Source of the DNA: Candidatus Ruminococcus intestinipullorum | GTDB taxonomy: Bacteria; Bacillota; Clostridia; Lachnospirales; Lachnospiraceae | NCBI GenBank assembly: GCA_018883985.1 | Contig: JAHLFA010000066.1 | Coordinates: 1-43,002, forward strand | Length of the DNA: 43,002 bases | Direction: 5' to 3' | Shown here: positions 4,317 through 32,906 of the stretch, one piece after another | How positions within the stretch are numbered: position 1 is the first letter of the stretch | How the letters are laid out: the number at the start of each line of letters is the position of its first letter | Program-made: the position numbers and the translations under genes | Notes under the pieces: generated by a model | What the model was told of the DNA's origin: nothing | The model's database searches: none | The model's input: the letters and a program-made list of their open reading frames with translations, nothing else

Positions 4317-5270
4317 ATGGGGAAACAGTTTGATGTAATTGCAATGGGAGAATTGTTGATAGATTTTACAACGTATGGAGAGAGTAATCAAGGAAATACT
4401 TTGTTTGAAGCGTGTCCAGGAGGAGCTCCTTGCAATGTTCTATCTTTATTAGCAAAATTAGGTAAGAAAACTGCATTTTTGGGTAAGGTAGGAGAAGATC
4501 AGTTTGGAAAATTATTAAGAACAACGCTTCAAAGTGTGGGAATTGATGACTCCTATCTTCTTGCAGACAAGGAAGTGAATACAACACTGGCATTTGTGCA
4601 TACATTGGAAGACGGTGATAGGGAGTTTTCTTTTTATCGCAACCCTGGTGCTGATATGATGTTAACAGAGGATGAAGTTGAAGAAGAGTTTATAAAGCAA
4701 GCGAAGATTTTTCATTTTGGTACACTTTCTATGACACATGAAGGGGTTAGAAAGGCGACAAAAAAAGCGATAAAAATAGCAAAAGAAGCAGGAATTTTCA
4801 TTTCTTTTGATCCAAATTTAAGAGAACCATTGTGGACCTCCTTAGATTTGGCGAAAGAACAGATGGAATACGGATTTTCATATTGTGATATGTTGAAAAT
4901 TTCAGATAACGAGATACAATTTGTAACTGGAGTAGAGGATTACGAGGAAGGAATTCAATATTTACAAGAAAAATATCACATTCCGATTATCCTTTTGACC
5001 ATGGGAAAAGCTGGAAGTAGAGTATATTACAATGGCATTTGTGTAGAGCGAGAAGGGAAAAAGGTTCAAGCGGTTGATACAACAGGAGCAGGAGATACCT
5101 TTTGTGGTAGTATACTTTATTATTTATTAGAGAATGATTTTGCACATTTGACAGAGGGGCAATTAGGTGAAATGTTAGAGTTTGCAAATGCAGCAGCAGC
5201 TCTCGTTACTACAAAAAAAGGTGCAATACGTTCAATGCCTAGTAAAGAAGAGATTCTAGAAATTATTTAG
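4317..5270 (+). CDS. scrK: PfkB-family fructokinase
   Basis: A 317-residue ribokinase/PfkB-family sugar kinase. The N-terminal substrate region is GELLIDFTTYG and CPGGAPCNVLSLLAKLG. The C-terminal PfkB signature DTTGAGDTFCG (about residues 250-260) contains the anion hole and the catalytic Asp. It would phosphorylate fructose released by the GH32 enzyme to fructose-6-phosphate, completing sucrose assimilation. A strong TAAGGAGG site precedes the ATG by about 8 nt. It is the last gene of the tight run that starts with the LacI-type regulator. Specificity for fructose rather than another sugar is inferred from the operon. Confidence 0.9.
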   Translation: MGKQFDVIAMGELLIDFTTYGESNQGNTLFEACPGGAPCNVLSLLAKLGKKTAFLGKVGEDQFGKLLRTTLQSVGIDDSYLLADKEVNTTLAFVHTLEDGDREFSFYRNPGADMMLTEDEVEEEFIKQAKIFHFGTLSMTHEGVRKATKKAIKIAKEAGIFISFDPNLREPLWTSLDLAKEQMEYGFSYCDMLKISDNEIQFVTGVEDYEEGIQYLQEKYHIPIILLTMGKAGSRVYYNGICVEREGKKVQAVDTTGAGDTFCGSILYYLLENDFAHLTEGQLGEMLEFANAAAALVTTKKGAIRSMPSKEEILEII

Positions 5271-5380
5271 AAGTATAGACAATGTAAAGAATATGTAAAA
5301 ACACTTTTCTTCCTATTAAAAATGTTGTATAGTATGAAACGAAAAAAACATAATATATAAATAGCAGGGGGAAGAGAGTA

Positions 5381-5623
5381 TTGTTAACATCAGAAGACAA
5401 CGTGTTATGTATCAAGTTTGATAATATAGAGGATGTACAGGAATTTTCAAGAATTGCCAATGAATTTACAGGTGATGTGGATTTATATCAAGGACGAGTT
5501 ATTATTGATGGGAAATCTCTTTTAGGAATTTACAGTATGGATATTGAAAAAGAGATAAAAATTAAAATATATAATGGAAGTCTTGAAGAATTTTCTCTTA
5601 AAATCAAACGTTTCTTAGTATAG
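5381..5623 (+). CDS. HPr/Crh-like small protein lacking the catalytic histidine
   Basis: An 80-residue protein starting at TTG, with an AGGGGGAAG site about 9 nt upstream. It aligns over its length with HPr phosphocarriers. EFSRIANEFTGDVDLYQ matches the first HPr helix and strand, and IIDGKSLLGIYSMDIEKEIKI matches the HPr segment around the regulatory serine (KSxMG). Counting from the TTG, that serine is residue 46, as in HPr, whereas residue 15 (His in HPr) is Asn. This resembles Crh, the Bacillus HPr paralogue that keeps Ser46 but lacks His15. It lies between the sucrose operon and dapF. A role in carbon signalling is inferred; it could also be a degenerate HPr fold with another role. Confidence 0.6.
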   Translation: MLTSEDNVLCIKFDNIEDVQEFSRIANEFTGDVDLYQGRVIIDGKSLLGIYSMDIEKEIKIKIYNGSLEEFSLKIKRFLV

Positions 5624-7856: not shown

Positions 7857-7927
7857 TGCGGATTGGTGTAATGGCAGCACAGCAGACTCTGACTCTGTTA
7901 GTAGAGGTTCGAGTCCTCTATCCGTAG
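7857..7927 (+). tRNA. tRNA-Gln (anticodon CUG), copy 1
   Basis: A full cloverleaf can be drawn by eye. The acceptor arms TGCGGAT and ATCCGTA pair with one G-U; the D arm has GTG/CAC; the anticodon stem GCAGA/TCTGT encloses loop CTCTGAC, giving anticodon CTG; the T arm AGAGG/CCTCT has loop TTCGAGT. A U1-A72 pair is characteristic of tRNA-Gln. CCA is not encoded. A strong promoter precedes it and an intrinsic terminator follows. A second identical copy is at 16468. Confidence 0.95.
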
Positions 7928-7931
7928 CTGA

Positions 7932-16467: not shown

Positions 16468-16538
16468 TGCGGATTGGTGTAATGGCAGCACAGCAGACTC
16501 TGACTCTGTTAGTAGAGGTTCGAGTCCTCTATCCGTAG
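16468..16538 (+). tRNA. tRNA-Gln (anticodon CUG), copy 2
   Basis: Identical in all 71 bases to the copy at 7857-7927 and folds identically (anticodon CTG in loop CTCTGAC). It has its own consensus promoter and terminator, so it is an independent transcription unit and not part of an array. Confidence 0.95.
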
Positions 16539-19061: not shown

Positions 19062-19096
19062 TTGCTTTATCTCCTTTCCATTTTACAACATTTATT

Positions 19097-19197
19097 CCAT
19101 TAATAGATACCGTGTTGATTTTCTTAACGTGATGAATTATAGTGAAATTAGAGAAAAGATACAACCATTAATGTAATGCTATTTTGTCTGTTAATGG
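19097..19197. promoter_or_regulatory. Putative TetR operators in the yhgE/tetR intergenic region
   Basis: The heptamer CCATTAA occurs at 19097-19103 and 19165-19171 and as its complement TTAATGG at 19191-19197. The last two form an inverted pair with a 19-bp spacer. Three copies in 195 bp between divergent genes suggest binding sites for the adjacent TetR protein. Inference only. Confidence 0.4.
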
Positions 19198-19256
19198 ATA
19201 AATAAGCAACATGGTGTCTATTATTTATTTTTATTTTAGAAAAGGAGAAATGTACT

Positions 19257-19847
19257 ATGGCAAAAAATATGGATCGTCGGGTTCGCAAGACAAGGAGTCA
19301 ACTCCGTCACGGACTGGCAGAACTTTTGAAAGAAAAAAGCATAAAGGAAATTACGGTCAAAGAGTTGGTTGAAAAGGTGGATATCAATCGCTCCACTTTC
19401 TACCTGCACTATACAGATATCTACGATATGATGGAAAAGATTGAGAATGAATTGATTGGAGAGATTGAGGAATTGGTTCATACCTATCCAGTAAGCCCAT
19501 TCAATGAAGACAGCTTTCCATTCATCGAGGATATTTTCTCTATACTGGCAGAGAATCGAGATATCTGTACCGCTTTGCTTGGACCAAACGGCGATATATC
19601 CTTTCTGCATCGGATAGAGTATCTTCTTGCCGAACACAGCCTGAACGCATTGAAGGAAACATTTCCAGAGAAGATGGATGATTTGAAGTACTACTATGCA
19701 TTCTGTCTTTCTGGCTGCATCGGTTTGGTCAAGACATGGCTGTCAAAAGGCTCCTCTGTCAGTCCTCAGCATATGGCAGAGCTTACATTTAAACTCATTA
19801 TGAATGCACTGCAGGGCTTTTATCCAGATTTAGAATTATTAACATAG
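19257..19847 (+). CDS. TetR/AcrR-family transcriptional regulator
   Basis: A 196-residue protein. The N-terminal HTH (residues 8-60) reads RVRKTRSQLRHGLAELLKEK, then ITVKELVEKVDINRSTFYLHY, an unmistakable TetR recognition helix. The C-terminal ligand domain resembles the TetR_C group seen with DhaS-like regulators. AAAGGAGAAA precedes the ATG. It is divergent from the YhgE-like gene, the common arrangement for a local repressor of a membrane export protein. The inducer is unknown. Confidence 0.92.
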   Translation: MAKNMDRRVRKTRSQLRHGLAELLKEKSIKEITVKELVEKVDINRSTFYLHYTDIYDMMEKIENELIGEIEELVHTYPVSPFNEDSFPFIEDIFSILAENRDICTALLGPNGDISFLHRIEYLLAEHSLNALKETFPEKMDDLKYYYAFCLSGCIGLVKTWLSKGSSVSPQHMAELTFKLIMNALQGFYPDLELLT

Positions 19848-19955: not shown

Positions 19956-21170
19956 GTGATTTATTATACAGAGGCTTTAGACTTCCAAGCTGAAACATTA
20001 TCACCTGACGAGGAAGGGTATGAAGAGAGGTTATTAGAAATTGCGTCGCTCTTTCGAGATTTTGGAGAGGCTTTTACAGCGTTTTTAGTAGAACATGGTT
20101 ATAAAGGGGATGTATCTGATGTAGAAGCAAAGGCAGAGTTTCTTCGGGAAAGATATAAGATGGCAGGGATTAAGACTCCTAGAGATTTTAAGGAGTGGTT
20201 TCGTCCAAATAAACAGCTAAAAAGAGAAACGATGATTCCTATTTGTTTTGTATTTCAGCTTGGATTGGAGGAAACAAATGAATTTCTTCGGTGTGTTTGC
20301 TTAGAGAGGGGATTAGACTGTCACACGTTAAATGAAGCGATATATTACTTTTGTATTAAAAATAAATATTCTTACCATGATGCCAAGGAGCTTATCGATA
20401 GAATACCAAAGCTGAAAAAAATAAAAGCAATTCCAAAACAAGAAATACTGTATACAGGAACCGTACGAGAGTATGTTGACAGTATAAAAGAGAAGGAACA
20501 ACTTGTAGAATATCTTACAGAAAATAGGGAGAATTTCCAATATAATAATGTAACGGCAATTCAATATATCAAAGAGTTATGGGGTGAAATTTCTATAGAA
20601 ACATCAGAGTTTGATGGTTGGGCAGTGAAAGAAAGTCATTTTATAGATGAGGCTTATAATAGATTTGAAATGAAAGCAGACGATTACGCTCTTGTAAATA
20701 AGGAGTCCTCCACATGGAGTATTTTTTCCCAGATTGTTGGGTTAAGAAATTATCAAAAAAATGAATATGGGATGAAATATAATCGTTCGCTAGCAACAGT
20801 ATTAAGCAGTAATGCGTTGATGCCGTTAAATGCCAGCTATTGTTTTCCTAGTCAACACAGTATTGATAAGGTACTTCGTGGGGAGCAAGGGGAAAATGAG
20901 CTTGTAAGAAAAATTTTGATTCTTCTTATTTTCTATAAGTATTGGGTTGAGAAAATAGTGGAGAATGGAGATATTTTCTATGAAGCAAAGCGTAGAGATG
21001 CCGCTGAGTGTTTGGAAACAATAGATCAATACTTATTGGATGCAGGCTATCCAGTATTATATGCAGGCAATCCATATGATTGGATTTTTAAATGGTCATT
21101 AAATAGTGAACATCCTTTGGAGGCTTTTAGAACTTATATGGGGGAGGTTTTTGCTGTTAAGGAAGAATAG
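19956..21170 (+). CDS. Uncharacterised protein with HTH-like helical N-terminal region, partner of the kinase-STAND gene
   Basis: 404 residues, starting at GTG (an overlapping ATG two bases earlier is followed at once by a stop). No transmembrane segment is seen. Residues about 58-135 look like a Cro/XRE-like all-helical bundle. The run RETMIPICFVFQLGLEETNEFLR followed by LNEAIYYFCIKN mimics the last helices of regulators in which 'G-L-S-L-E-E-T' marks the HTH scaffold. The remaining 270 residues are charged and helical without a motif I can name. It is 72 bp upstream of the kinase-STAND gene on the same strand, suggesting a two-gene unit. It may be a DNA-binding or adaptor protein controlled by the kinase; function unknown. 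Confidence 0.6.
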   Translation: MIYYTEALDFQAETLSPDEEGYEERLLEIASLFRDFGEAFTAFLVEHGYKGDVSDVEAKAEFLRERYKMAGIKTPRDFKEWFRPNKQLKRETMIPICFVFQLGLEETNEFLRCVCLERGLDCHTLNEAIYYFCIKNKYSYHDAKELIDRIPKLKKIKAIPKQEILYTGTVREYVDSIKEKEQLVEYLTENRENFQYNNVTAIQYIKELWGEISIETSEFDGWAVKESHFIDEAYNRFEMKADDYALVNKESSTWSIFSQIVGLRNYQKNEYGMKYNRSLATVLSSNALMPLNASYCFPSQHSIDKVLRGEQGENELVRKILILLIFYKYWVEKIVENGDIFYEAKRRDAAECLETIDQYLLDAGYPVLYAGNPYDWIFKWSLNSEHPLEAFRTYMGEVFAVKEE

Positions 21171-21242
21171 ATAGCAAAGGTAAAACCTAAATAAAAGATG
21201 TCTATGGTACGATAGCTATATCAGAAAAAGAGGTGAGAAACT

Positions 21243-23735
21243 ATGGATCATAGAAATGCTTTACAGCCCCAGACACTACTTTCTTTTACAAGTAAAAAAG
21301 GAGAGGTAATTCAATATAAAATAGAAGGTGAAATTGGGCGAGGGGGATCTTGTATCGTATATGAAGTGTCAAGAAGGACACAAACAGGGGATAAAACATT
21401 CTATCGGATGAAAGAATATTATCCATACAAACAAAATATTCATCGAGAGAGTGATGGAACATTAAAACCATTGCAGCAGGAGGAAGAAGAGTTTCAGATA
21501 GGAAAAGAGAAATTCCAAAGGGATTTTTCACGGACAAATCAATTGTTTTATTCCAATTCCAACTACGCTTCTATGGTAAATCAATTGGATATTTTTGAGA
21601 AAAATGGAACGTCCTATATTGTATCTACCTACTCCTCAAAGAAAACATTAGCCGTATATAAACCAGATAGTCTCAAAGAGTGTATAACATTAGTGAAACA
21701 TGTAGCCTATGTTTTATGTAATATACATAAGGCAGGCTATCTGTATTTGGATACAAAACCAGAGAATATTTTAGTGGTAGAAGGAGCCACGAAGCAAGTA
21801 CAGTTATTTGATTTTGATTCACTTCTTTCCATTTCAGAGCTTACGAGCTTTATAAAATTACAACGTAGTGATATTAGAGTTTCCTACTCAAGGGGATTTG
21901 CACCAATAGAGCTGCAGAAAGCAAATATAAAAAGAATCGGGCCATATACAGATGTATTTGGCGTTGGAGCCTTGTTATTTTATCTTTTATTTGGTTATAC
22001 CCCAACGGCACCTCAGTGTAGAACAACGGCAGTCTATGATTTCTCTAGTATTTCTTATAATACAAAGCAATGTGATAATAAAATCTTTAGAGCCTTGGAG
22101 AAGTTTTTTCATTGTACGATTGCCGTTTATTATGCTGACCGTTACCAAACAATGGAGGAGGCATTTCGAGCATTAGAAAAGCTGGAAAGATATGCAGATA
22201 CGCTTGTTCCAAGAATTTATTCTACACATATAGAGAAAGAGAGAATCTTGTTTGGGCGTGAGGAAGAGCTTGCTCAAATGGATAGAGTTTTAGAAAATCC
22301 AGAACATTCCCTGGTATTTGTCACAGGAATGGGAGGGATTGGAAAAAGTTCATTTCTTAGGGAGTATTTATTTACCCGTCGTGATAAATTTGATGTAATT
22401 CTATATGTTCCATATATGGGAAGTATAGAAGCTACAATAATTAATGATAATACAATTACAATTAACACCTTGCGACAGGAAGAAGAGCGAGAGTCAGATA
22501 CAAGATATTTTGAAAAGAAATTGCAGAGGATGAAGGAACTTTTACATGGAACCTCTTCTATTTTGGTAATTGATAATTTTATAGGAAAACTTGATGATAA
22601 GTTGTGGGCTGTTCTACAAACGGGCATTCAGGTAATATTAGTTAGCCGTCAACACTATTCATATAAAAACAGTTTTGAATTACAACTTCATAGAATTTCC
22701 AAGTTAGAGGCATTACGGCAGCTTTTTGAATATCATTTGGGACGAAAAATTTCTCGTGAGGAGGAAAGAGCTTTTGAGAAACTTGTTCATAGTGTAGGTG
22801 GACATACACTGGTGTTAGAATTGATTGCAAAGCAAATTGTAAATAGTTATCTTACAGTAGATAAGGCTTTATATTTAGCTGAGAAAGATGGATTTACGGC
22901 GATTGGTTCGGAAAAGATAGACTATGAGAAAGATGAGAAATCTTTTAATGATACCATAGGAAATTTGATTGATTTTCTATTCAAGGAAAATGAACTTTCA
23001 GAGTCTAAAAGGATATTATTGAAACTATTATCTCTTTTGGGAAGTCATGGAATAGAAATAAATCAATTTCAAGAAAGTTTAGACCTGATATCAAAGGATG
23101 AGATTCATGAATTAATCAAAGAGGGATGGGTTTTACAATCAGGTGAAGTAATTTTTCTACACCAGGTTATTTGGGAGGCAATACATCGTTGGGAATGGAT
23201 CTCTCGTTTTCTTGTGGAGGCAGATAAGTTTTTATTGTATTTTTACACAGAAATTCAGCTCCAACCTATAAAGCATCAATTTGTAAGACAAGCAAGGGAA
23301 ATTCTCCTCCGATGTAAGAGAGAGAAAGCAATTTGCAATTTATCCAGTTACAAGAAATTACATCCTATTACTGTTTTAAATACACCACTTTATAAAGAAG
23401 AGTATATATTAGAGCAATCTAGGATAATCTTTAAGAACTATACACAGTATGATTCTAAGATGATAATGAAACTGTTTCATATCGTAGTTGAAATTCATAT
23501 GAAGAATGGACAAAGAAAAGAGGCAGTACATGTGCTAAAGCAAGCAAAGCATCTTGCAAAGCAAGCAAAACAACACTCCATGTATGCTCTATATTATAAT
23601 ATGGTATCGGAATATTATGATATTCTTTTAAATGGTGCGTATGATGCAGAAACGATGGAAGAGAAAAGATTATTGAAAAAGTTGCTTAGGTCAGTTTACA
23701 AGGAACTACACGCAGACCGTGAAACGGGCTGCTGA
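21243..23735 (+). pseudogene. Protein kinase-STAND NTPase-TPR gene, 5' part, interrupted by mobile element
   Basis: 830 codons; the first 816 are native and the last 14 come from the inserted element. Kinase domain (about 22-315): Gly-rich loop GRGGS 32-36, Lys57 in MKEYYP, catalytic loop YLDTKPEN (Asp170, Lys172, Asn175), metal-binding Asp190 in DFD (DFG variant), APIE 220-223. STAND/NB-ARC-like NTPase (about 330-620): Walker A TGMGGIGKSS 361-370, Walker B ILVIDNF 440-446, LVSRQ 466-470, GGHTLVLEL 519-527. After about 700, helices resembling TPRs begin. The remainder of the TPR region is at 31306-31812. All catalytic residues are intact, so this half may still make an active, truncated protein. 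Role unknown: signalling or STAND-type defence. Confidence 0.85.
23692..23711 (+). repeat. Left terminal inverted repeat of the element
   Basis: CAGTTTACAAGGAACTACAC; it matches the complement of the right end with one mismatch. It is the element-side half of attL. Confidence 0.93.
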
Positions 23736-23824
23736 CAACAAACGGCGCTATGCTCCCGGCTGGGTGCATAGCACCTGTTTGTTGCGGGGGTTTCCAAAGG
23801 GGGCAGCGCCCCATTTGGCACACG

Positions 23825-23855
23825 ACTTTGCGGAGCAAAGTGTAGTGTGTTATAC
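23825..23855 (+). other. oriT of MobV/pMV158 type
   Basis: A 7-bp hairpin ACTTTGC-GGA-GCAAAGT (23825-23841) runs into TAGTGTGTTATAC (23843-23855). The sequence TAGTGTG/TTA is the nick site of the MobM relaxase of pMV158, and the flanking AAGT-TAGTGTGTTATAC context also agrees. The predicted nick is between 23849 and 23850 on the plus strand. The cognate MobV gene is at 28506. About 120 bp of non-coding DNA separates this site from the left end. Confidence 0.82.
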
Positions 23856-24434
23856 GCTCTGTCGGCGTTGCCCTGAAAATACCGTTGCCGCCGGGGAGGG
23901 CAAGGGCATTTGACGCGGCAGGAAAGCAGGGCTTTGTTTGGGGCTGGTAAGCCGGAAACAAAGGGCTGATTTCAGCAGCAGACAGGGCGTATTATGAAAG
24001 CCCCCGTCCCTCGTCCTCCGCCCCCGGCCTATGGGACAAAAAGTCCCAAAGCTCTGGACACCGTGACCAGATGTGTGGCCACACTCCGGGAAAAGTAGCA
24101 GGACGGCAGGAAACCGTCAAGGCTGAAATGAATGGGCTGACGCCCGGCCTTGACCGTTCCCCGCCGCCCCGCTGGATGGGTGGACAAGGTGGCCAATCCC
24201 TAAAAGTGTTTGGCCGCACTCGTTCATTTTGGGGCCTTTCTTCTCCCAAAATTGAAATGGGCGGGAAAGCCCTAAAATGGCTTTCCCGCCTTGATTACCC
24301 ATTAGCAAAGACGGGCGAGACTGTCAACGGCGGCGCTGAAAGCGCCGTTCATCTTGACCGTTGACTGGCTCGCCTGGCTTTGCTACTGCCCGTAAGAGAT
24401 GGAAAAACAAGATGGAAAACAAGGTTAAAAATGG
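23856..24434 (+). other. Gene-free, hairpin-dense left region of the element
   Basis: No credible gene is seen here. Several strong inverted repeats are present: GGCCAA/TTGGCC (24191-24215), TTTTGGG/CCCAAAA (24227-24251), a perfect 12-bp stem GGCGGGAAAGCC/GGCTTTCCCGCC (24260-24290), and a nested structure at 24303-24385 (separate entry). The density suggests a single-strand origin, a relaxosome or replication region, or a structured RNA upstream of the efflux gene. Short open frames in it are high-GC chance frames. Confidence 0.6.
24303..24385. repeat. Nested 83-nt stem structure
   Basis: Concentric complementary blocks in the right order: TAGCAAAG/CTTTGCTA (24303, 24378), GGCGAG/CTCGCC (24314, 24369), GTCAACGG/CCGTTGAC (24323, 24358) and an inner GGCGC/GCGCC hairpin. 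Together they form one long, slightly bulged stem covering the whole segment. Confidence 0.8.
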
Positions 24435-24464
24435 TTGACAAGTCTATCGGATGTGTGTTATACT
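24435..24464 (+). promoter_or_regulatory. Promoter of the Mef-like gene
   Basis: TTGACA (24435-24440), 18-bp spacer, TATACT (24459-24464). The transcript would start about 24471, leaving a 270-nt leader before the efflux gene. Confidence 0.82.
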
Positions 24465-24498
24465 GTGCGACAGTTTGAGATTGGAAGGAGGCTTACGT

Positions 24499-24519
24499 AT
24501 GTTAATTTGTGTACGCTAA
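24499..24519 (+). CDS. Six-residue leader peptide (MLICVR)
   Basis: ATG at 24499 follows AAGGAGG by 7 nt and the frame stops after six codons: Met-Leu-Ile-Cys-Val-Arg. It lies at the front of a long leader with tandem terminator-like hairpins, as in ribosome-mediated attenuation of macrolide and other antibiotic resistance genes. Drug-stalled ribosomes on this peptide could change the fold downstream. The mechanism is inferred. Confidence 0.7.
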   Translation: MLICVR

Positions 24520-24546
24520 TAAGCAATAAAAAGTAGAAGTACCTTT

Positions 24547-24693
24547 CCACATGATGGTGGGCTTTTTTTGCGTGCGTATGCAAAGGAACACGTAGGTTTG
24601 ACACGAGCAGTCTTTGAACTGTATCGTGGTGTTTTTTCGTGCTTTGTTGTTATGCAGGCGTCTGCCCTCTCTGTGGGACAACGCCTGCTTTTT
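24547..24693 (+). promoter_or_regulatory. Attenuator region with three tandem terminator-like hairpins
   Basis: First: CCAC/GTGG stem (24547-24560) followed by seven Ts. Second: CACGA..AGT / ACT..TCGTG (about 24602-24629) followed by six Ts at 24632. Third and strongest: GCAGGCGT / ACGCCTGC (24654-24661, 24681-24688) with an inner CCC/GGG pairing, followed by five Ts. All lie between the leader peptide and the efflux gene, so default transcription should stop before it. Confidence 0.72.
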
Positions 24694-24739
24694 ATTGCAG
24701 AAACAAAGGAACAATGCAATAAAAAAGGAGGTTCGCATT

Positions 24740-25960
24740 ATGACCCAAAACAACAATTCATGGAGAAAAACTTATTTTACACTTCTTGCCGGACAAGCAA
24801 TATCCTTTATTAGCAGCGGTATTTTGCAAATGGCCATTATCTTTTATTTGGTTGCGAAAACTAATTCTGCAATCATATTGACGGCGGCAACACTGATTGG
24901 ATTTTTGCCGCAAGCCTGTTTAGGCCCGTTTGCAGGTGCTTTTGTTGACCGGCACAGCCGTAAAAGCGTAATGATTGGTGCGGATTTGATAATTGCCGCC
25001 GCTGGCGGTATTCTGGCGCTGGTGGCGTTTTACATGGAATTGCCCGTATGGTCTATTATGGTTGTCCTGTTAATCCGAAGTGCGGGAACTGCTTTTCATT
25101 CTCCAGCATTCAGCGCAGCAACACCTATGATTGTGCCAAAAGAGGAACTTACAAAATGCGCTGGTTACACGCAGACCATGCAAGCAGTAAGTGCGATTAT
25201 CAGTCCAGCTGCCGCAGCGTTTTTATATGCTGTTTGGCCTCTTAATGCAATTATATTGTTAGATATTGTGGGTGCAATCCTTGCCTGTGTGACTGTTGCG
25301 ATTTCGTCCATACCAACGCCTGAACTATGTCCAGAAACGAAAAGACAACAGTTTTTACAGGATATGAAAGAGGGGTATGTGGTATTAAAGCAAAACAGGG
25401 GCCTCTTTGCTCTGCTCTGGATTGGTGTAATTTATATGTTCTTTTATATGCCAATCAGTACGCTTTTTCCTCTCATCTGTATGTCATACTTCAAAGGAAC
25501 ACCGGCCCATGCCTCTGCCGCTGAAATTGCTTTTGCGGTTGGTATGCTGCTTGGCGGAGTCATTCTGAGCATTTGGGGCGGTTTTAAGAAACGGCGGTAC
25601 ACCATCGGTCTTTCCGTTCTCCTGATGGGCGTTAGCAATATGCTCTCCGGGCTTTTGCCGCCAGACGCATTTCTTGTCTTTGTTGTGTGCTGTACTGTTA
25701 TGGGAATTTCCGCTCCATTTTACGGTGTGCAAAATGCGATTTTTCAAGAAACGGTCAAACCAGAATATCTGGGGAGAGTTTTTTCTCTACTGACAAGCGC
25801 CGCTTCCCTCGCCATGCCGTTTGGCCTTGTCATTTCCGGGCCTCTGGCGGAGCGGCTGGGAGTTGAGAAATGGTTTGTCATTTGCGGAATTGGCATTATC
25901 ATCGTTGCGCTTGCCGTATTTTTACTACCCGGTTTGAGAGAGATTGACAATACGCAATAA
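24740..25960 (+). CDS. Mef(A)/Mef(E)-like major facilitator efflux transporter
   Basis: 406 residues from ATG 24740 (AGGAGG 8 nt upstream), close to the 405 of Mef(A). Earlier in-frame codons run through the attenuator and are not used. Twelve membrane spans are expected. Segments recalling Mef proteins include WxxxFxxLxAGQAISFISS, GILQMAIIFYLV, FVDRHSRKSVMIGADLIIAAAG, LTKCAGYTQTMQAVS, FVVCCTVMGIS and KPEYLGRVFSLL. Mef pumps expel 14- and 15-membered macrolides. The usual ABC-F partner msr(D) is absent. It is the only cargo-like gene of the element and is controlled by the leader region. Actual substrate untested. Confidence 0.85.
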   Translation: MTQNNNSWRKTYFTLLAGQAISFISSGILQMAIIFYLVAKTNSAIILTAATLIGFLPQACLGPFAGAFVDRHSRKSVMIGADLIIAAAGGILALVAFYMELPVWSIMVVLLIRSAGTAFHSPAFSAATPMIVPKEELTKCAGYTQTMQAVSAIISPAAAAFLYAVWPLNAIILLDIVGAILACVTVAISSIPTPELCPETKRQQFLQDMKEGYVVLKQNRGLFALLWIGVIYMFFYMPISTLFPLICMSYFKGTPAHASAAEIAFAVGMLLGGVILSIWGGFKKRRYTIGLSVLLMGVSNMLSGLLPPDAFLVFVVCCTVMGISAPFYGVQNAIFQETVKPEYLGRVFSLLTSAASLAMPFGLVISGPLAERLGVEKWFVICGIGIIIVALAVFLLPGLREIDNTQ

Positions 25961-25988
25961 TCAACTGCACCTTTTTCTATTACTAAAC

Positions 25989-26040
25989 AAAATGCCTGGA
26001 TGGTGGTTCTGAAAAACCAGAACCGCCGTTCAGGCATTTT
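25989..26040. terminator. Bidirectional terminator between efflux and XRE genes
   Basis: Outer stem AAAATGCCTG/CAGGCATTTT and inner stem GGTTCTG/CAGAACC, with A/T runs at both sides, placed exactly between the convergent genes. Confidence 0.9.
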
Positions 26041-26841
26041 TTATCTTCGTCCTCTCTGCGGTTTTGGATTCTTCAGCAAGTCGGATTTTTCCGCAATCTT
26101 TTTCAGCCACTTCCGTTCTTCTACTGACAGCTTCCTAAAATTCAGCTTGAGCCGTTTGCAGATAAACGCCAAGTACGCTTGTTCCGTGTCGCTGTCCTGG
26201 CTGACGATTTCACCAGCAGTTTCCAGCATTTCTTTTAGCGGGTTATCCTCTGGGACGCTGAAAAAATCGTCCTTGTGTGTTTCCCGCAGAGCAAGGGCAA
26301 TCCCGTTTATGTCCCGTTGTATCACATAGCGGCAAAACTCGTCCTCATCAATATGGGCGGTGATAAGCTGTCTTAACTGCGTATCACTCATGCCAGGATT
26401 ATGCTTTTTTATAACAGTTGCGCTCATCGTGTCCACTATGGCGTTTGCACCCTGCGCCTGTTTCAGTGCCGTTCCGTTCACATAGATTTCAAGGTCAGCC
26501 ATCAGCCGGGGGAAATCCGGGTGCGCCGCCAGCTCACACAGCAGGGTATTGTCTATCCTCCCGCTTTTCAGCAGGTCAATCATTTCATCACTCAAACGCA
26601 GGTCTGCAAGATCGGCGTTTGGGTGATTTTTCATTTCAGACAGCCCCAGCAGATAATCAGCGGTCACACCGTAAAACTTCGCCAGCCGGATAAGGGCATA
26701 GTGGCTGATGTCCTTGAAGTCTTCCGTTTCGTAACTGCCCAGCGCAGACTTGGAAAGCCCGGTCTGCTCCGCAAGCTGCCCCAGCGTCAAGCCACGCTCC
26801 ACACGTAGGTCTTTTAATCGCTCTTGTATGGATAAAGACAT
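26041..26841 (-). CDS. XRE-family helix-turn-helix regulator of the element
   Basis: 266 residues starting at the ATG ending at 26841 (GGAGGG directly upstream); a GTG two codons earlier is less likely. Residues 5-65 form a standard Cro/C1 HTH: LKDLRVERGLTLGQLAEQTGLSKSALGSYE, then LIRLAKFYGVTADYLLG. The rest is helical with no recognised domain; residues about 75-266 may be an effector or dimerisation region. An immediately upstream 12-bp inverted repeat is a likely autoregulatory operator. Probably controls recombinase, mob or rep expression of the element. Confidence 0.88.
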   Translation of the reverse strand: MSLSIQERLKDLRVERGLTLGQLAEQTGLSKSALGSYETEDFKDISHYALIRLAKFYGVTADYLLGLSEMKNHPNADLADLRLSDEMIDLLKSGRIDNTLLCELAAHPDFPRLMADLEIYVNGTALKQAQGANAIVDTMSATVIKKHNPGMSDTQLRQLITAHIDEDEFCRYVIQRDINGIALALRETHKDDFFSVPEDNPLKEMLETAGEIVSQDSDTEQAYLAFICKRLKLNFRKLSVEERKWLKKIAEKSDLLKNPKPQRGRR

Positions 26842-26874
26842 ATTCACCCTCCTTGCTAGCTCAACGAAAGAGAA

Positions 26875-26911
26875 GCCGTTATGCTATGTACTATGCTCAT
26901 AGCATAACGGC
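26875..26911. repeat. Perfect 12-bp inverted repeat, operator candidate
   Basis: GCCGTTATGCTA and TAGCATAACGGC flank a 13-nt spacer that itself holds a related ATGCTCATAGCAT half-dyad. It lies between the small minus-strand gene and the XRE gene, 34 bp before the XRE start, without a T-tract. Likely binding site of the XRE protein. Confidence 0.65.
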
Positions 26912-26919
26912 ATAGGCAT

Positions 26920-27183
26920 TTACAGTTTTATTTTACCATTTGCTACATCTTCACGAAATTTATCAACAAGCTTCGCTGTCAGCTTGGATTTACCGTAGTG
27001 TTCAAGTACAAAAGTACGATAACTTTTTCCATCTACAAGCACATCACTTTTTCTGGTCAACAACCAATTTCCGTTACCTCCTCCCTGTTCTCTAATATTC
27101 CAGTCTTTCCCATATCTTTTATAGATTTCATCTTTTTTACCTTGAACAGACATTGATTCGCTTGGAATATAAACAATTTGCAT
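26920..27183 (-). CDS. Small uncharacterised element protein (87 aa)
   Basis: 87 residues with AAAGGAGGAGC before the ATG. Basic, soluble, no membrane segment; the middle has REQGGGNGNWLLTRKSDVLVDG, which suggests a small beta-rich domain, and a helical C-terminus (KLTAKLVDKFREDVANG). Its DNA is noticeably more AT-rich than the surrounding element, so it may have been acquired separately. It lies directly upstream of the XRE regulator on the same strand. Function not recognised. Confidence 0.7.
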   Translation of the reverse strand: MQIVYIPSESMSVQGKKDEIYKRYGKDWNIREQGGGNGNWLLTRKSDVLVDGKSYRTFVLEHYGKSKLTAKLVDKFREDVANGKIKL

Positions 27184-27411
27184 AATAGCTCCTCCTTTAT
27201 TTTGTGCAAGAAGACCAGAAACCTGAATTTGTCTTTTATCTTTTTTTGATTATATCACAAATCCGAGAGCGTGGAAATAGGGAGTTTTTCAGGCTGATTT
27301 CCTACCTCTTGGATATACGGCACAGGCGGTCAAAAAGGTGTAGACTTGGGATAGTTCATCGATGGACAAGCACCTTGGAAACAGAACACGCCAAAGAAAA
27401 CGGAGGGACGC

Positions 27412-27825
27412 ATGAGCAAAAGACCCTATCAACACCTGCCGCCGCTGGAACACAGGCCGGACGGCTCCCCCTACCGCATAACCCCGCCCCAGAAGAGACG
27501 AGCCAGCGGCCTGATACGCCGGGAGTGCTGCAACTGCGAGGACGGAAACTGCCTTGCGCTGGACGATGGCGACACCTGCGCCTGTCCGCAGATGATTTCG
27601 TTCTCCGTCTGCTGCAAGTGGTTCCGCTGGGCGGTCTTGCCGCTGGACAGGACGCTGGAAGCGGAGATTTACCGGGACAGGGACTTGAAACGCTGTGCGG
27701 AGTGCGGCGGTGTGTTCGTCCCGAAGTCCAACCGGGGCAAATACTGCCCGGACTGCGCCGCCAGAGTTCACAGGCGGCAGAAAACAGAAAGTGAACGGAA
27801 AAGGAGGTCTGCTGTGGACAGTTAA
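27412..27825 (+). CDS. Cysteine-rich VLP-type zinc-binding protein
   Basis: 137 residues. Two cysteine clusters: RRECCNCEDGNCLALDDGDTC followed by CPQMISFSVCCKWFRWAVLPLD, and a C-terminal zinc ribbon CAECGGVFVPKSNRGKYC followed by CPDCA. This matches the Cys-rich VLP proteins commonly found beside rep and mob genes in Clostridia mobilizable elements. A GGAGGG site precedes the ATG. Likely a DNA-binding accessory protein; exact role unknown. Confidence 0.82.
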   Translation: MSKRPYQHLPPLEHRPDGSPYRITPPQKRRASGLIRRECCNCEDGNCLALDDGDTCACPQMISFSVCCKWFRWAVLPLDRTLEAEIYRDRDLKRCAECGGVFVPKSNRGKYCPDCAARVHRRQKTESERKRRSAVDS

Positions 27826-27936
27826 GAGCGGGAAAAGCCTTGATTTGCAAGGCTCCGCAAGCCCTCAACCGGGGCGGCTGGTATCATTTATCATTCGCCC
27901 CGGAAAACGGGCCTCTAACCGTCCACAAAACACGCT

Positions 27937-28332
27937 ATGACAAACACGATTTATATTCACCAGCCGGAAAAGGCGTTCAGTTTCACCCGGCTCCCCAATT
28001 TCCTTTTTGAAGCACCCACATTCCAGCCCTTGAGCAACGAAGCGAAGGTGCTGTATGCCTTTGTCCTGCGCCGGGCGGAGTTGTCCCGGAAGAACGGCTG
28101 GGCGGACGAGTACGGGCGGGTCTACCTGTACTACCCCATCTGCGAGGTGGTCGCTTTGCTCCGCTGCGGGCGGCAGAAAGCGGTCAACACCCTGCGGGAG
28201 TTGCAGTATGCGGGGCTGGTGGAAATCCAGAAACAGGGCTGTGGAAAACCCAACCGCATTTACCCGAAATCCTATGAAGCGGTTCCAAACACCGACTTCA
28301 AGAAATCCGGTTATGGTACGCCGGAGGGCTGA
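27937..28332 (+). CDS. RepA_N-type replication initiator, short form
   Basis: 131 residues corresponding to the N-terminal winged-helix domain of replication initiator protein A: FTRLPNFLFEAPTFQPLSNEAKVLYAFVLRRAELS, then RVYLYYPICEVVALLRCGRQKAVNTLRELQYAGLVE. The usual C-terminal domain is missing, so the protein may act as a regulator or a minimal initiator. No good ribosome binding site is seen before ATG 27937. Clustered GTACG repeats lie just downstream. A circular intermediate of the element could replicate if this is functional. Confidence 0.8.
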   Translation: MTNTIYIHQPEKAFSFTRLPNFLFEAPTFQPLSNEAKVLYAFVLRRAELSRKNGWADEYGRVYLYYPICEVVALLRCGRQKAVNTLRELQYAGLVEIQKQGCGKPNRIYPKSYEAVPNTDFKKSGYGTPEG

Positions 28333-28378
28333 AAACCGTACTTGGCGAGTACGAAAATCAATCCTCTTGAAGTACGGA
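28315..28378. repeat. Clustered GTACG repeats after the RepA gene
   Basis: GGTACG, CCGTACTT, GAGTACG and AAGTACGG occur within 64 bp at the 3' end of the rep gene; CCGTACTT and AAGTACGG are inverted copies. These could be initiator-binding sites or an origin. The pattern is short and may be coincidental. Confidence 0.4.
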
Positions 28379-28427
28379 AATCTGACGGTATATAGAAATA
28401 CAGAGATTAAAACCATCTATTTACATT

Positions 28428-28491
28428 CATTCCATTCCAATCCTATCAGAGATATTTTCGGCGGGAAAACCCGCCGGAAAGGAATGGAATG
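28428..28491. repeat. Two-level hairpin in the mob leader
   Basis: Outer 11-bp arms CATTCCATTCC/GGAATGGAATG and a separate inner 7-bp hairpin CGGCGGG-AAAA-CCCGCCG. The outer 3' arm ends about 5 nt before the GGAAAGGAG ribosome binding site of the relaxase gene. It could modulate mob translation or be a protein-binding site. Confidence 0.7.
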
Positions 28492-28505
28492 GGGAAAGGA
28501 GTTCA

Positions 28506-29450
28506 ATGGCACAACACGCAATTTTGCGATTTGAGAAGCACAAGGGCCACCCGGCGGGGCCGCTGGAAGCCCACCATGAACGGAAAAAGGAGCAGTACGC
28601 CAGCAACCCGGACATTGACACCAGCCGGAGCAAGTACAATTTCCACATCGTCAAGCCGGATGGCCGCTACTACCATTTCATTCAGAGCCGCATCGAGCAG
28701 GCCAGATGCCGCACCCGCAAGGACAGCACTCGGTTTGTGGACACGCTGATTACCGCCAGCCCGGAGTTTTTCAAGGGCAAGTCCCCAAAGGAGATAGCGG
28801 CCTACTTCCAGAGGGCGGCGGACTTCCTCATTGACCGGGTGGGCCGGGAGAACATCGTTTCGGCTATGGTACACATGGATGAAAAAACGCCCCATCTGCA
28901 CTTGGTCTTTGTGCCGCTGACAAAGGACAACCGCCTGTGCGCCAAAGAAATTATCGGCAACCGGGCCAATCTGACGAAGTGGCAGGACGATTTTCACGCC
29001 TGTATGGTGGAGCAGTACCCCGACCTGGAGCGTGGGGAAAGCGCCAGCAAGACGGGCCGGAAGCATATCCCCACCCGGCTGTTCAAACAGGCGGTCAACC
29101 TCTCCAAACAGGCGAGGGCCATTGAAGCGGTTCTCTCCGGCATTACCCCGCTGAACGCCGGAAAGAAGAAAGAGGAAGCCCTCTCCATGCTGAAAAAGTG
29201 GTTTCCGCAGATGGAGAACTTCTCCGGGCAACTGAAAAAATACAAGGTCACAATCAATGACTTGTTAGCGGAAAATGAAAAGCTGGAAGTCAGGGCAAAG
29301 GCCAGCGAAAAAGGCAAGATGAATGACACGATGGAACGGGCGAAGTTAAAAAGCGAACTGGACGATATGCGGCGGCTGGTTGACCGTATCCCGCCGGAGA
29401 TTTTAGCGGAACTGAAACGGCAACAGCGGCAGCATGGAAAGGAAAGGTGA
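28506..29450 (+). CDS. MobV-family relaxase (Mob/Pre plasmid recombination enzyme)
   Basis: 314 residues. N-terminal MAQHAILRFEKHKG and RSKYNFHIVKPDG fit MobV motifs I-II; motif III, MVHMDEKTPHLHLVFVPLT, holds the metal-binding His residues and acid (HxDExxPHxH). The C-terminal part (about 190-310) is lysine-rich and probably coiled coil. The enzyme nicks oriT and leads single-stranded DNA to a conjugative pore supplied by another element. A matching TAGTGTG/TTA oriT lies at 23843, unusually far away at the other end of the element. Shorter than pMV158 MobM (494 aa), as in Tn4451-like elements. Confidence 0.93.
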   Translation: MAQHAILRFEKHKGHPAGPLEAHHERKKEQYASNPDIDTSRSKYNFHIVKPDGRYYHFIQSRIEQARCRTRKDSTRFVDTLITASPEFFKGKSPKEIAAYFQRAADFLIDRVGRENIVSAMVHMDEKTPHLHLVFVPLTKDNRLCAKEIIGNRANLTKWQDDFHACMVEQYPDLERGESASKTGRKHIPTRLFKQAVNLSKQARAIEAVLSGITPLNAGKKKEEALSMLKKWFPQMENFSGQLKKYKVTINDLLAENEKLEVRAKASEKGKMNDTMERAKLKSELDDMRRLVDRIPPEILAELKRQQRQHGKER

Positions 29451-29646
29451 TCTTATAAGTAATATCAGATACAAAAAGGAAATCGAAATCGTGACTTTTC
29501 AGGGAAAGGAAATCACACTGGAAAATCTCTCCCCGGTGTTCACGCCGGAACAGGAAGCAGCCAAACGCCGGGAACTGGAACAGCAGCTTTATGAGGTGTT
29601 CCGCAAGTACGCCGACAAGCGGGAGAGTGAGGAAGCCGGGACATAA
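29434..29646 (+). CDS. Small protein overlapping the relaxase gene (70 aa)
   Basis: 70 residues, starting 17 bp inside the end of the relaxase gene, which suggests translational coupling. The C-terminal half is a charged helix (PEQEAAKRRELEQQLYEVFRKYADKRE). No motif of known function. Such short frames commonly sit between mob and recombinase genes in this element class; a small DNA-binding or accessory role is conjecture. Confidence 0.65.
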   Translation: MERKGDLISNIRYKKEIEIVTFQGKEITLENLSPVFTPEQEAAKRRELEQQLYEVFRKYADKRESEEAGT

Positions 29647-29664
29647 GGTTTTCCAAACCCATCA

Positions 29665-29693
29665 TTGATTTGCGGGGCTGCTGGCGGTATAAT
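29665..29693 (+). promoter_or_regulatory. Promoter of the serine recombinase
   Basis: TTGATT (29665-29670), 17-bp spacer, TATAAT (29688-29693). The -10 box sits in the loop of a CTGCTG/CAGCAG dyad (29678-29706 area), so a repressor or structure could cover it. Confidence 0.7.
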
Positions 29694-29740
29694 AGAACTG
29701 TCAGCAGCTCCGTTTCTTTTTTAAGAAAAGGAGCGACAAT

Positions 29741-31252
29741 ATGAACAATCGGATAGACGCAATCTATGCAAGACAATCGGTAGACAAAAAGGACAGCATT
29801 TCCATTGAAAGCCAGATTGAATTTTGCAAATACGAGTTGAAAGGCGGTAACTGCAAGGAATACACAGACAAAGGGTACAGCGGCAAGAACACAGACCGTC
29901 CGAAGTTTCAAGAACTGGTGCGGGACATCAAGCGGGGCTTGATTGCAAAGGTCGTGGTTTACAAGCTCGACCGTATCAGCCGTTCCATTCTGGACTTTGC
30001 CAACATGATGGAGCTGTTCCAGCAGTACAATGTGGAGTTTGTGTCCTCTACGGAAAAGTTTGATACCTCCACGCCGATGGGACGGGCCATGCTGAATATC
30101 TGTATCGTGTTCGCCCAGCTTGAACGGGAAACGATACAGAAGCGGGTAACGGACGCTTACTACTCCCGCAGTCAGCGGGGCTTTAAGATGGGCGGGAAAG
30201 CCCCTTACGGCTTCCATACGGAGCCTATCAAGATGGACGGTATCAACACAAAGAAGCTGGTGGTAAACCCGGAGGAAGCGGCCAATATCCGGCTGATGTT
30301 TGAGATGTACGCCCAGCCCACAACTTCCTACGGGGACATTACCCGGTACTTTGCCGAACAGGGGATTTTGTTCCATGGCAAAGAGCTGATACGCCCCACG
30401 CTGGCGCAGATGTTACGCAATCCTGTCTATGTGCAGGCAGACCTTGATGTGTACGAATTTTTCAAAAGTCAAGGTACAGTCATTGTCAATGACGTTGCCG
30501 ATTTTACGGGCATGAACGGCTGCTATCTGTATCAAGGGCGAGATGTAAAGGCCAGCAAGAAAAACGACTTAAAAGACCAAATGCTGGTACTGGCTCCCCA
30601 TGAGGGTATCGTCCCCTCCGACACCTGGCTGACCTGCCGCAAGAAGCTGATGAACAACATGAAAATCCAGTCTGCCCGGAAAGCCACCCACACATGGCTG
30701 GCAGGAAAAATCAAGTGCGGGAATTGCGGGTATGCTCTTATGAGTATCTACAATCCCTCCGGCAAACAGTATCTCCGCTGCACGAAACGGCTGGACAATA
30801 AAAGCTGTCCTGGCTGTGGGAAAATCATCACTTCGGAACTGGAAGCGGTTGTTTATCAGCAGATGGTAAAGAAGCTGGCAAGCTACAAGACGCTGACAGG
30901 AAAAAAGAAAGCGGCAAAGGCAAACCCGAAAATCACCGCCCTGCAAGTGGAACTTGCCCATGTAGACAGCGAGATTGAAAAGCTGGTGGACAGTCTGACG
31001 GGGGCAAACAATGTCCTGTTCTCCTATGTGAATGTGAAGATAGCGGAACTGGACGGGCGCAAGCAGGAACTTCTGGCAAGGATAGCGGAGTTGACTGTGG
31101 AGGCCATCAGCCCGGAACAGGTCAGCCAGATTTCCGGCTACCTCGATACCTGGGAGAATGTATCTTTTGATGACAAGCGGCGTGTGGTGGATTTGATGAT
31201 CACCACCATAGCCGCCACAAGCGACAGCTTGAACATCACATGGAAAATCTGA
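29741..31252 (+). CDS. Large serine recombinase (TnpX/TndX-like), element integrase
   Basis: 503 residues. The N-terminal resolvase domain (1-150) has IYARQSVDKKDSISIESQ with the nucleophilic Ser11 in the ARQS motif, and YKLDRISRSILDFANM with the catalytic Arg residues. The recombinase domain (about 170-300) follows, then a zinc ribbon (CGNCGYALM then CTKRLDNKSCPGC) and a coiled coil (about 385-450). It recombines att sites with a 2-bp core to excise and integrate the element. It is the last gene, ending 52 bp before the right end, with its own promoter. The length is at the short end of the TnpX group (TnpX 707 aa). Confidence 0.95.
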   Translation: MNNRIDAIYARQSVDKKDSISIESQIEFCKYELKGGNCKEYTDKGYSGKNTDRPKFQELVRDIKRGLIAKVVVYKLDRISRSILDFANMMELFQQYNVEFVSSTEKFDTSTPMGRAMLNICIVFAQLERETIQKRVTDAYYSRSQRGFKMGGKAPYGFHTEPIKMDGINTKKLVVNPEEAANIRLMFEMYAQPTTSYGDITRYFAEQGILFHGKELIRPTLAQMLRNPVYVQADLDVYEFFKSQGTVIVNDVADFTGMNGCYLYQGRDVKASKKNDLKDQMLVLAPHEGIVPSDTWLTCRKKLMNNMKIQSARKATHTWLAGKIKCGNCGYALMSIYNPSGKQYLRCTKRLDNKSCPGCGKIITSELEAVVYQQMVKKLASYKTLTGKKKAAKANPKITALQVELAHVDSEIEKLVDSLTGANNVLFSYVNVKIAELDGRKQELLARIAELTVEAISPEQVSQISGYLDTWENVSFDDKRRVVDLMITTIAATSDSLNITWKI

Positions 31253-31812
31253 CTGGCGGCACCCCTCCCGTCAGATACCTACCCTGTGTAGTCCCTTGTA
31301 AACTGTACTTTGCTTCTGTAGAAAAAACATTGCAATATTCCAGAAAAAATGTAGCAGAAGATAAAGACTATTTATATATAAAAAATATTTTATCAAAGGC
31401 TACCATATTGATGCGAAGTGGTTTCGGTTCTGATAAGACGATAAAATCGTTGCTTAGTACAGCACAAAAGCTCATTTATGAAAATACAACGCCGTTTGCA
31501 GATGTACGAATGGAATTGTGCCTAGTTTCTAGTTGGTATTTTACTTTAATTTCTGAAAATAAAGAAATGGTAGAACAATTGATGCATAAAGTATGTCTGC
31601 TTTCAAAACAAATCATACATACAGATTTGGAGAGAATAGAGATATTTATTATTCCTTATGCAAATATGTTTTTAGAATTGGGTTGTTATCAAAAATCTTT
31701 AGAATTGTTGAATCAAGGGATAGAGCTTTGTGAAAAATACAGGGACATGGATGCTTATAATCGAATAAAGGTAAATTTACAGGAATATGCGATGCAAGTT
31801 CGATTGCATTGA
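31240..31812 (+). pseudogene. Kinase-STAND-TPR gene, 3' part (TPR-like C-terminus)
   Basis: The open frame is 190 codons: 22 from the element, then 168 native codons from about 31306. The native part is helical, with TPR-like pairs (IKNILSKATILMRSGF; MLELGCYQKSLELLNQG-type MFLELGCYQKSLELLNQG; CEKYRDMDAYNRIKVN). Joined at the GT core, it continues the 21243 frame to a 984-residue protein. Its ATG at 31240 overlaps the recombinase stop (31250-31252), so re-initiation by coupled translation is possible, giving a separate C-terminal fragment. The stop is followed 62 bp later by the next gene. Confidence 0.85.
31286..31305 (-). repeat. Right terminal inverted repeat of the element
   Basis: GTGTAGTCCCTTGTAAACTG on the plus strand; its complement matches the left repeat at 19 of 20 positions. 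It is the element-side half of attR. Confidence 0.93.
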
Positions 31813-31874: not shown

Positions 31875-32906
31875 ATGAAGAAAAGAATAAATTGTGATGT
31901 AGGGGCAGGGAAAAAAGCAAACGATAAAATTTCTATTTCTTATGATTCCTTATTACTCTATGGAATTACCGAGATTGCAGATATGGAAATAGGATTTATG
32001 ATTCAAGATGACGATTATAATGAGATTAAAACAGGTCCACGTCAGATACAGACAAATATTGTGGATCAATATGATTACCAAAAGCTAAGTTACAGAGAGG
32101 CAATTGTAAGTGATGCAATACAAAATGAATATCAGTACAATGTTGCGTATTTTTCTGATAAAGTTTTGTATGAGCAAAACGGAATTTCTATTTTATCTAG
32201 TATATTTATGGAAAATAAAGATGAAGAAATGGCAGTTGCCTTGGAAGTGAAAAATACATCAGAGCAAGCAATTCATGTAATCGCCAAAAGAGTGTCCATA
32301 AACGGCCTTATCGTGTATGATGGTACATGGACATCAAGTACAATTAACGCCGATAAGACGGGAATTTTAGATATTAATTTGAATGATATTTTAGAAACAA
32401 ATTTGTGGGATATATACGGAATTGAAGAGGTAGGAAGTGTAGAAATAACGTTAGATTTTAAAGATGAAAATTGGAATGAAGTAATGGAGGAAACAACTGT
32501 TACAATAGAAAATCCAGAAGTTTCATCAAAGTTTAATTCTGAAGGTGTAGAAGTATATAACGTGGATGGTGTGCGAATTCTTATGAAAGACATTATTAAA
32601 GAGGATGAGGATTATAGCGAGGATTTATATATTTTACTTCTTGTAGAGAATGAAACAGATAGTAGCATTACATTAGATGATTCTTATGATTCCTTTTCAA
32701 TTAATGGGTATATGACAGATGCGATGATGTCATCTATTACATTAGAAAGTGGTTCTAGTGCAATTTTAGAGATTGAAGTATTTGAATCAGATTTGGAAGA
32801 AAATTCGATTTCAGATGTCTCAGATATTTCTGAAATAGAAGTAGGAATGGAGTTAGAAAAGAACAATGGAAACGAAGAAGAGATTGTTTTGACATTGACT
32901 CCTTAA
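31875..32906 (+). CDS. Protein of repeated beta-rich domains, apparently without its export signal
   Basis: 343 residues with AGGAGG 8 nt before the ATG. Two full and one partial copy of a beta-sandwich-like repeat of roughly 110-120 residues can be seen: partial 13-60 (ending MEIGFMIQDDDYNEI), full about 95-210 and full about 215-340. Each has an AxxxNxTxxxI-type strand (VALEVKNTSEQAIHVIAK; LLLVENETDSSITL) and a closing strand VGSVEITLDF or EIEVGMEL. Related Lachnospiraceae proteins are usually lipoproteins with MKKRI plus a lipobox; here MKKRINCDVGAGKKAN jumps straight into mid-repeat, suggesting an in-frame deletion of signal peptide and half a domain. It lies just after the kinase-STAND gene. 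Function unknown. Confidence 0.65.
   Translation: MKKRINCDVGAGKKANDKISISYDSLLLYGITEIADMEIGFMIQDDDYNEIKTGPRQIQTNIVDQYDYQKLSYREAIVSDAIQNEYQYNVAYFSDKVLYEQNGISILSSIFMENKDEEMAVALEVKNTSEQAIHVIAKRVSINGLIVYDGTWTSSTINADKTGILDINLNDILETNLWDIYGIEEVGSVEITLDFKDENWNEVMEETTVTIENPEVSSKFNSEGVEVYNVDGVRILMKDIIKEDEDYSEDLYILLLVENETDSSITLDDSYDSFSINGYMTDAMMSSITLESGSSAILEIEVFESDLEENSISDVSDISEIEVGMELEKNNGNEEEIVLTLTP

Follow-up and report, generated by a model that had tools for sequence, protein, structure and literature searches.

Two adjacent genes, here called A and B, lie in a 43,002-nucleotide stretch of DNA from Candidatus Ruminococcus intestinipullorum (Lachnospiraceae; contig JAHLFA010000066.1), hereafter referred to as the window. 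Their products are likely to work together, with B serving as a STAND-type receptor-kinase and A as its partner. We further propose, tentatively and with slightly less than even confidence, that B acts through A and probably switches linked surface genes. Gene A (19956..21170, plus strand) is an intact open reading frame (ORF) encoding a 404-aa protein, and 72 nt separate it from gene B. The 5' part of B (21243..23735, plus strand; 830 aa, the last codons being insert sequence) encodes a predicted kinase, an NB-ARC/STAND NTPase and the start of a C-terminal region; the 3' part (31297..31812, plus strand), which holds the end of the putative sensor region, lies on the far side of an inserted mobile element.

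The linkage of A and B is real. A profile built from seven A proteins recovered 110 relatives in genome contigs and three in viral contigs; with 80 of the former retained, this gave 83 loci (L120, L129, and L137 among them appear to duplicate the records L025, L026, and L027). A kinase ORF is present near A in 81 of these loci, STAND is found in the same ORF in 76, and in 69 of the 81 fewer than 300 nt separate A from the kinase. Gene order is tandem, A then B, in 60 loci (median gap 61.5 nt) and divergent in 18; a further three carry a convergent label, although in two of these the called ORFs overlap and the arrangement is effectively divergent. The exceptions are L133, with a short A and no kinase, and L134, with no A ORF, while the kinase ORF is without STAND in L078, L080, L093, L106, and L122, some of these reflecting contig ends or broken ORFs. 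Among 250 genomes of the same family (window included), A was detected at E<=1e-10 in seven, with B adjoining in six. B was detected at E<=1e-20 in 19, nine of the matches running over kinase and STAND and ten over STAND only; A stands beside eight of the nine kinase-STAND matches (window included), being recognized by profile only in G175 and not at all in G125. The preliminary description of this DNA had proposed a two-gene system, a proposal that hung on homologues of the two genes being neighbors, and the loci, together with the co-occurrence seen across Lachnospiraceae genomes, strongly support it. That the pairing is due to chance or to an annotation artefact, without joint function, is very improbable. 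It could appeal to the short, kinase-less L133 and to an A gene in genome G192 (L029:10118-11428) that has no kinase match in the 15 kb read, a stretch that is partly masked and in which a MoxR-like ORF was recognized nearby by eye; at the level of gene linkage it is refuted by the 81 of 83 loci, by the occurrence of more than one gene order and by joint variation across several families.

Some loci depart from the simple pair in their gene content. Two genes, by eye like an anaerobic ribonucleotide reductase activase and its neighbor, are located between A and B in L127 (5392-7550) and L145 and are also present in L148. L068 (5959-11750) carries a kinase-STAND gene and a nearby PP2C-like gene without an A match, with two unmatched ORFs (285 and 227 aa) between them. 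The proteins of L070:1519-3996 and L071:6823-9294 appear by eye to have TIR-like N-termini, and their NTPase part matches the STAND domain of B, so that the same STAND is combined with another effector.

B is predicted to be a Hanks-type kinase, NB-ARC/STAND and TPR-like protein in a single chain, and the kinase-STAND-TPR receptor logic first attributed to it is supported by Pfam domains, TPR matches and conserved residues. The 5' part matched Pkinase (1.2e-12), AAA_16 (6.9e-8), and NB-ARC (2.4e-7), all above the Pfam cut-offs; the NB-ARC profile scored 30.7 bits against a curated cut-off of 23.5, and 40 of 43 B sequences matched it at E<=0.01. The predicted Ser/Thr kinase domain occupies residues ~24-315 (21312..22187, plus strand) and the NTPase residues ~336-660 (22248..23222, plus strand), with Walker A at 362-369 and Walker B at 440-446. 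Residue conservation was assessed in 71 B proteins selected for matching both domain profiles, with a further six added by hand. The kinase residues K57 (70 proteins), D170 (71), K172 (70), N175 (71), and D190 (71), as well as Walker A Lys368 and Walker B Asp444 (70 each), are nearly invariant, and Asp170, Lys172, Asn175, Asp190 and the Walker A segment (361-370) lie at the positions originally assigned to them, conserved in 70-71 of 71. The DFD found in place of DFG, which had also been flagged, proves to be a family trait: the glycine position holds Asp192 in 68 of the 71 proteins, Asn in two and Gly in one. His640, kept in 67 of 71, is in our reading the equivalent of the MHD-like histidine after the winged helix, which we take to be a motif of STAND/NB-ARC NTPases. 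TPR models matched several of the 43 B sequences, TPR_MalT the most (10), and a profile search matched the C-terminal region to the TPR sensor PH0952; the best profile match of B to a solved kinase was the N-terminal domain of PpkA. By a simple hydropathy threshold a membrane-like segment occurs in 0 of 79 A and three of 64 B proteins, and both are predicted to be mostly soluble.

A and B vary together. Across the 60 loci in which both proteins are of sufficient length, their identity matrices correlate with r 0.93, a value reached in 0 of 999 permutations, and partial correlations over 59 loci gave 0.63 for A with the kinase (0 of 499 permutations), 0.39 for A with the TPR part and 0.00 for A with STAND. 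The proximity of A to the kinase end in the DNA could yield the same correlation pattern. The loci L104 and L113 are alike in A (74% identity) and kinase (79%) and divergent in STAND (45%) and TPR (44%), suggesting a likely swap of the sensor half; the STAND-TPR half of B thus looks swappable. In 97 of 141 pairs, conservation within B is lowest in the TPR part, a figure that was considered as proof of an arms race and judged only suggestive.

In a tree of 81 A proteins, made by a quick method and carrying taxon names as labelled on the records (mostly metagenome-assembled genomes), tandem and divergent loci largely separate, and divergent gene order prevails in most of one clade. The clade containing the window has 11 members (support 100) from Lachnospiraceae, Oscillospiraceae, and Erysipelotrichaceae, and two Selenomonadaceae records fall inside a mostly Lachnospiraceae clade. 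This mixing of families within clades suggests that the pair has likely spread horizontally across families and classes among gut clostridia, which by record labels are the majority of its hosts.

The partner protein itself had been described as lacking any known domain, and window A indeed has no match above cut-off in Pfam, NCBIfam or PADLOC and none among PDB sequences (best E 0.059). The AlphaFold2 model indicates a confident, all-alpha fold (pLDDT 92.1). The N-terminal region is XRE-like, and the C-terminal part is conserved and bears a GNPYDW motif. The helix-turn-helix (HTH) block that had been suspected in A finds weak support in a faint resemblance to XRE domains. Residues 34-118 (20055..20309, plus strand) form a candidate XRE/Cro-C1-like region with its best signal at residues 77-108: hhalign scored XRE at 58-67% in all three sliding segments holding these residues and at 7% or less in the remaining 36 segments of A and B, and the signal exceeded shuffled and sliding-segment controls in two hhalign tests. 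A fold search with the isolated candidate domain found nothing, and PrgX, lambda repressor, and AimR appeared for A as low-Z rows only. PrgX and AimR are presumably RRNPP-type regulators, from which A differs in having no TPR family among the first 25 of 53 Pfam families, in the low Z and in the unconfirmed isolated domain. Among the Pfam HTH models window A matched only HTH_56, at 15.1 bits and below the 26.2 cut-off, and no HTH model was found in more than two of 76 A members at E<=0.5 (among the first 25 of 53 Pfam families, ordered by members).

The failure of Pfam and of the isolated-domain fold search to find an HTH would suit a different role for A, that of a regulatory or scaffold subunit of the kinase (an inhibitor, adaptor or oligomerisation partner) in which the HTH resemblance is due to chance or is a relic. 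Such a subunit would be expected to track the kinase domain and to accompany several kinds of kinase, as A does, and the C-terminal part of A holds many of its most conserved residues across 76 homologues (R318, P373, and D375, for example). The XRE signal above both sets of controls speaks against it, as do a mean charge of +2.7 at residues 72-95 in a protein that is otherwise neutral to acidic and the divergent order in most of one clade, an arrangement typical of autoregulators; we regard this role as plausible but short of probable. A further feature is Thr167 (codon 20454..20456, plus strand), at the end of a variable linker in the model and represented by Thr in 74 and Ser in two of 76 homologues, which conservation and the model mark as a candidate phosphorylation site.

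A is not confined to kinases of the STAND type. The 14 more distant A loci (L031, L033 to L044, and L067) include 13 with a Ser/Thr kinase close to A, and A is therefore best seen as a kinase-partner family; the only kinase-less locus of the 14, L044, has a short A. Our own STAND profile matched one of these 13 kinases, that of L067, and none of the other 12; the kinase chain of L036 also matches NB-ARC over the cut-off. PP2C-like genes are present in L031, L035, L038, L041, and L067 according to a profile built partly from these same loci, with Pfam confirming L038, L041, and L067, and the gene in L031 adjoins another kinase.

Many pairs are followed by a gene for a surface protein. Downstream genes were examined in the 60 tandem loci minus repeats and near repeats (L092, L096, and L120); in 34 of these B is followed on the same strand, within 1300 nt, by a gene of 100 aa or more. 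The lipoprotein and export predictor was our own, and the loci are not independent. A predicted lipoprotein is encoded directly downstream in 11 of the 34 vs 7 of 262 other flanking genes (Fisher p 1.7e-7), and an exported protein of any kind in 16 of 34 vs 39 of 262 (p 4.5e-5). Two downstream clusters recur, namely D in 10 loci (nine distinct) and E, several of whose members carry DUF6591, in another 10. In 40 pair genomes drawn from the 83 loci, mainly from tandem ones, D matched in 11 at E<=1e-6 and in nine at E<1e-30; seven of the nine strong matches fall inside the pair locus by coordinates, and the other two (G250 and G278) have a short pair contig. DUF6591 was found in 14 of the 40, and in eight of these it sits within the pair locus as retrieved; the corresponding figure for the window's family, to which not all of the 40 belong, is 17 of 250 genomes. 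Strong D matches without the pair in G077 and G130 indicate that D is not exclusive to it, and with D detected at E<=1e-10 in 25 of 250 family genomes, mostly weakly, its presence was rejected as a marker of the pair; positional linkage is the informative part. A shared operator upstream of A and the lipoprotein gene was likewise rejected: 11 of 14 loci did not exceed the best of 20 mononucleotide shuffles, and L075, L081, and L085 did so with a margin of 0.5 to 1 point, in A/T-rich sequence. The preliminary description had delimited the system to 19956..31812, which captures a genuine A/B pair but leaves outside a linked gene of the lipoprotein family at 31875-32906; this gene, its truncation in the window and the wider A-plus-kinase family had all been overlooked.

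The following sequence of events would accommodate these observations. The variable TPR-like end of B, in this model a cytosolic receptor kinase, would bind a ligand, whereupon the NB-ARC/STAND domain would change its nucleotide state, probably oligomerise and so turn on the N-terminal Ser/Thr kinase. The kinase would then act on or through A, most likely by phosphorylation with Thr167 as the best candidate, and A, via its XRE-like HTH, would probably alter transcription of linked genes, in many loci including that for a surface lipoprotein. We favor signalling with a surface output because of the lipoprotein genes, the phosphatases in some related loci, the reversible chemistry of kinases and the metabolic neighborhood. 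A more ambitious version, in which the pair constitutes a bacterial NLR whose output is signalling and not cell death, a cytosolic kinase-effector STAND protein with A as its one dedicated DNA-binding substrate (through Thr167), carried as a gut-clostridial cassette with swappable sensors and its own lipoprotein output, and with A founding a kinase-partner family, is possible but rather improbable.

An antiviral STAND system could be built from the same components, with the TPR end sensing a phage protein, the kinase as a cell-shutdown effector and A restraining or relaying the signal. The tripartite layout with a variable end is as expected for such a system, and so are the patchy distribution (a match at E<=1e-10 in three of 291 genomes of the class, the window's own among them), the apparent transfer across families and classes and the recombinases that a limited homology search detected in seven of the 83 loci. 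Single copies adjoin phage or restriction genes: in L155 (715-7932) a phage integrase, an HTH repressor-like gene and RusA lie beside the pair, which with one extra 242-aa gene occupies a prophage cargo position, and in L156 (328-8825) the pair adjoins an N6/N4 DNA methylase and two MvaI/BcnI endonucleases. The neighborhood at large argues the other way. When the 130 nearest neighbors in 80 loci (the three repeat records omitted) were compared with PADLOC and Pfam, no PADLOC family was found in more than three members, a count made without a control set and hence carrying no claim about enrichment; the commonest Pfam family was DUF6591 (7 of 130). A defence-island setting, whose presence had been raised as a point to check, was therefore not adopted, the copies in L155 and L156 being what stands in its favor. 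Around the window pair, the genes that were scanned serve metabolism, regulation or transport, and PP2C phosphatases in some related loci together with downstream lipoproteins suggest reversible signalling. No A match was detected at E<=1e-3 among 50,697 phage records and 72,556 plasmids, and the reading of A as a phage or plasmid gene was rejected; the three relatives in viral contigs include the L155 copy. We judge a defence function a serious competitor, possible but somewhat improbable, and retain signalling through A as the working model.

The copy in the window is itself damaged. An integrative mobilizable element of ~7.6 kb (23698..31296, edges within ~20 bp) interrupts B; it encodes a MobV relaxase, a large serine recombinase and a Mef(A)-like major facilitator superfamily protein scoring below the curated Mef(A) cut-off, and an imperfect 18-bp inverted repeat is found at its edges, near 23694 and near 31286. 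Parts of the element resemble plasmid DNA of Campylobacter jejuni, Subdoligranulum, and Pusillibacter (84-88% identity in the four matches of greatest width); no plasmid match covers 80% of it, and some of the matching plasmid stretches are annotated with aadE. Aligned alone to the intact homologue of L075 (1110 residues), the 5' piece of B covers residues 1-694 and 753-909, and the 3' piece (31240-31812) covers residues 901-1064 with 52% identity by blastp, indicating an insertion in which no large piece of B was lost at the break and agreeing with the earlier estimate of about 984 residues for B minus the insertion. The alignment of the downstream D gene (31875..32906, plus strand) to the 470-aa L075 lipoprotein is confined to residues 131-468 of the latter, D having lost the N-terminal ~130 residues with the signal peptide and lipobox. 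With B interrupted and D truncated, this copy of the system is probably dead, A itself being intact. In L084 (2314-6121) a second B gene is cut short at the point where a serine recombinase gene (4010-5443, minus strand) begins, with a D piece further on, perhaps an independent insertion into B. Directly upstream of A, window positions 16665-19847 hold a gene for a YhgE/Pip-family membrane protein and, divergent from it, a TetR-type regulator, and two tRNA-Gln genes with the same anticodon (ctg) lie ~8.6 kb apart (7857-7928 and 16468-16538).

Family A, recurring beside kinases and always holding Thr or Ser at one position, is a candidate dedicated partner of clostridial Ser/Thr kinases. Should B signal through A, an ordinary regulatory pathway with a surface output can take its input from STAND receptors; should the defence reading be true instead, a kinase joins the STAND effectors, together with a conserved partner. 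The loci further suggest that sensor halves are exchanged, and they link a lipoprotein gene to the pair.

The ingredients of the pair, though not their arrangement, have counterparts in known systems. AfsK-AfsR of Streptomyces comprises a Ser/Thr kinase and a separate SARP-NB-ARC-TPR regulator in one pathway, and thus shares with the present loci a kinase, an NB-ARC-TPR module and a DNA-binding regulator; here kinase and NB-ARC-TPR form one chain and the DNA-binding candidate is separate and unrelated, a profile scan having found no SARP-type match in A or the 5' part of B. The PD-T4-6 kinase of PADLOC (best E 5.8e-18) matches the kinase part of B only, to about residue 340; B adds STAND and a sensor to this similar kinase domain, and the pair adds A. 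Avs proteins and related bacterial NLRs are given a layout of N-terminal effector, central STAND NTPase and variable C-terminal repeats (PMC10907252). B has the same effector position, STAND and variable end and differs in its kinase effector, near-constant partner A and frequent lipoprotein gene; no Avs model was among the best 25 of 27 PADLOC rows. A literature search lacking most subscription journals found no paper on this pair, family A, DUF6591 or the lipoprotein link, so that the term "undescribed" first applied to the system holds for the pair and not for the general theme: S/T/Y kinases as effector modules coupled to STAND NTPases are already known from Kaur et al. (2020, 2021; PMC7159879, PMC8195603). 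As portrayed there, the kinase conflict systems occur chiefly in multicellular bacteria and are linked via effector-associated domains or vWA/MoxR (PMC7159879, PMC8195603), most kinase domains of the vWA systems being disrupted in the 2020 account (PMC7159879). No vWA or MoxR was found among the window proteins scanned, a subset of its ORFs, and the family described here differs from the MoxR-vWA/STAND kinase systems in its conserved catalytic residues and its largely gut-clostridial hosts.

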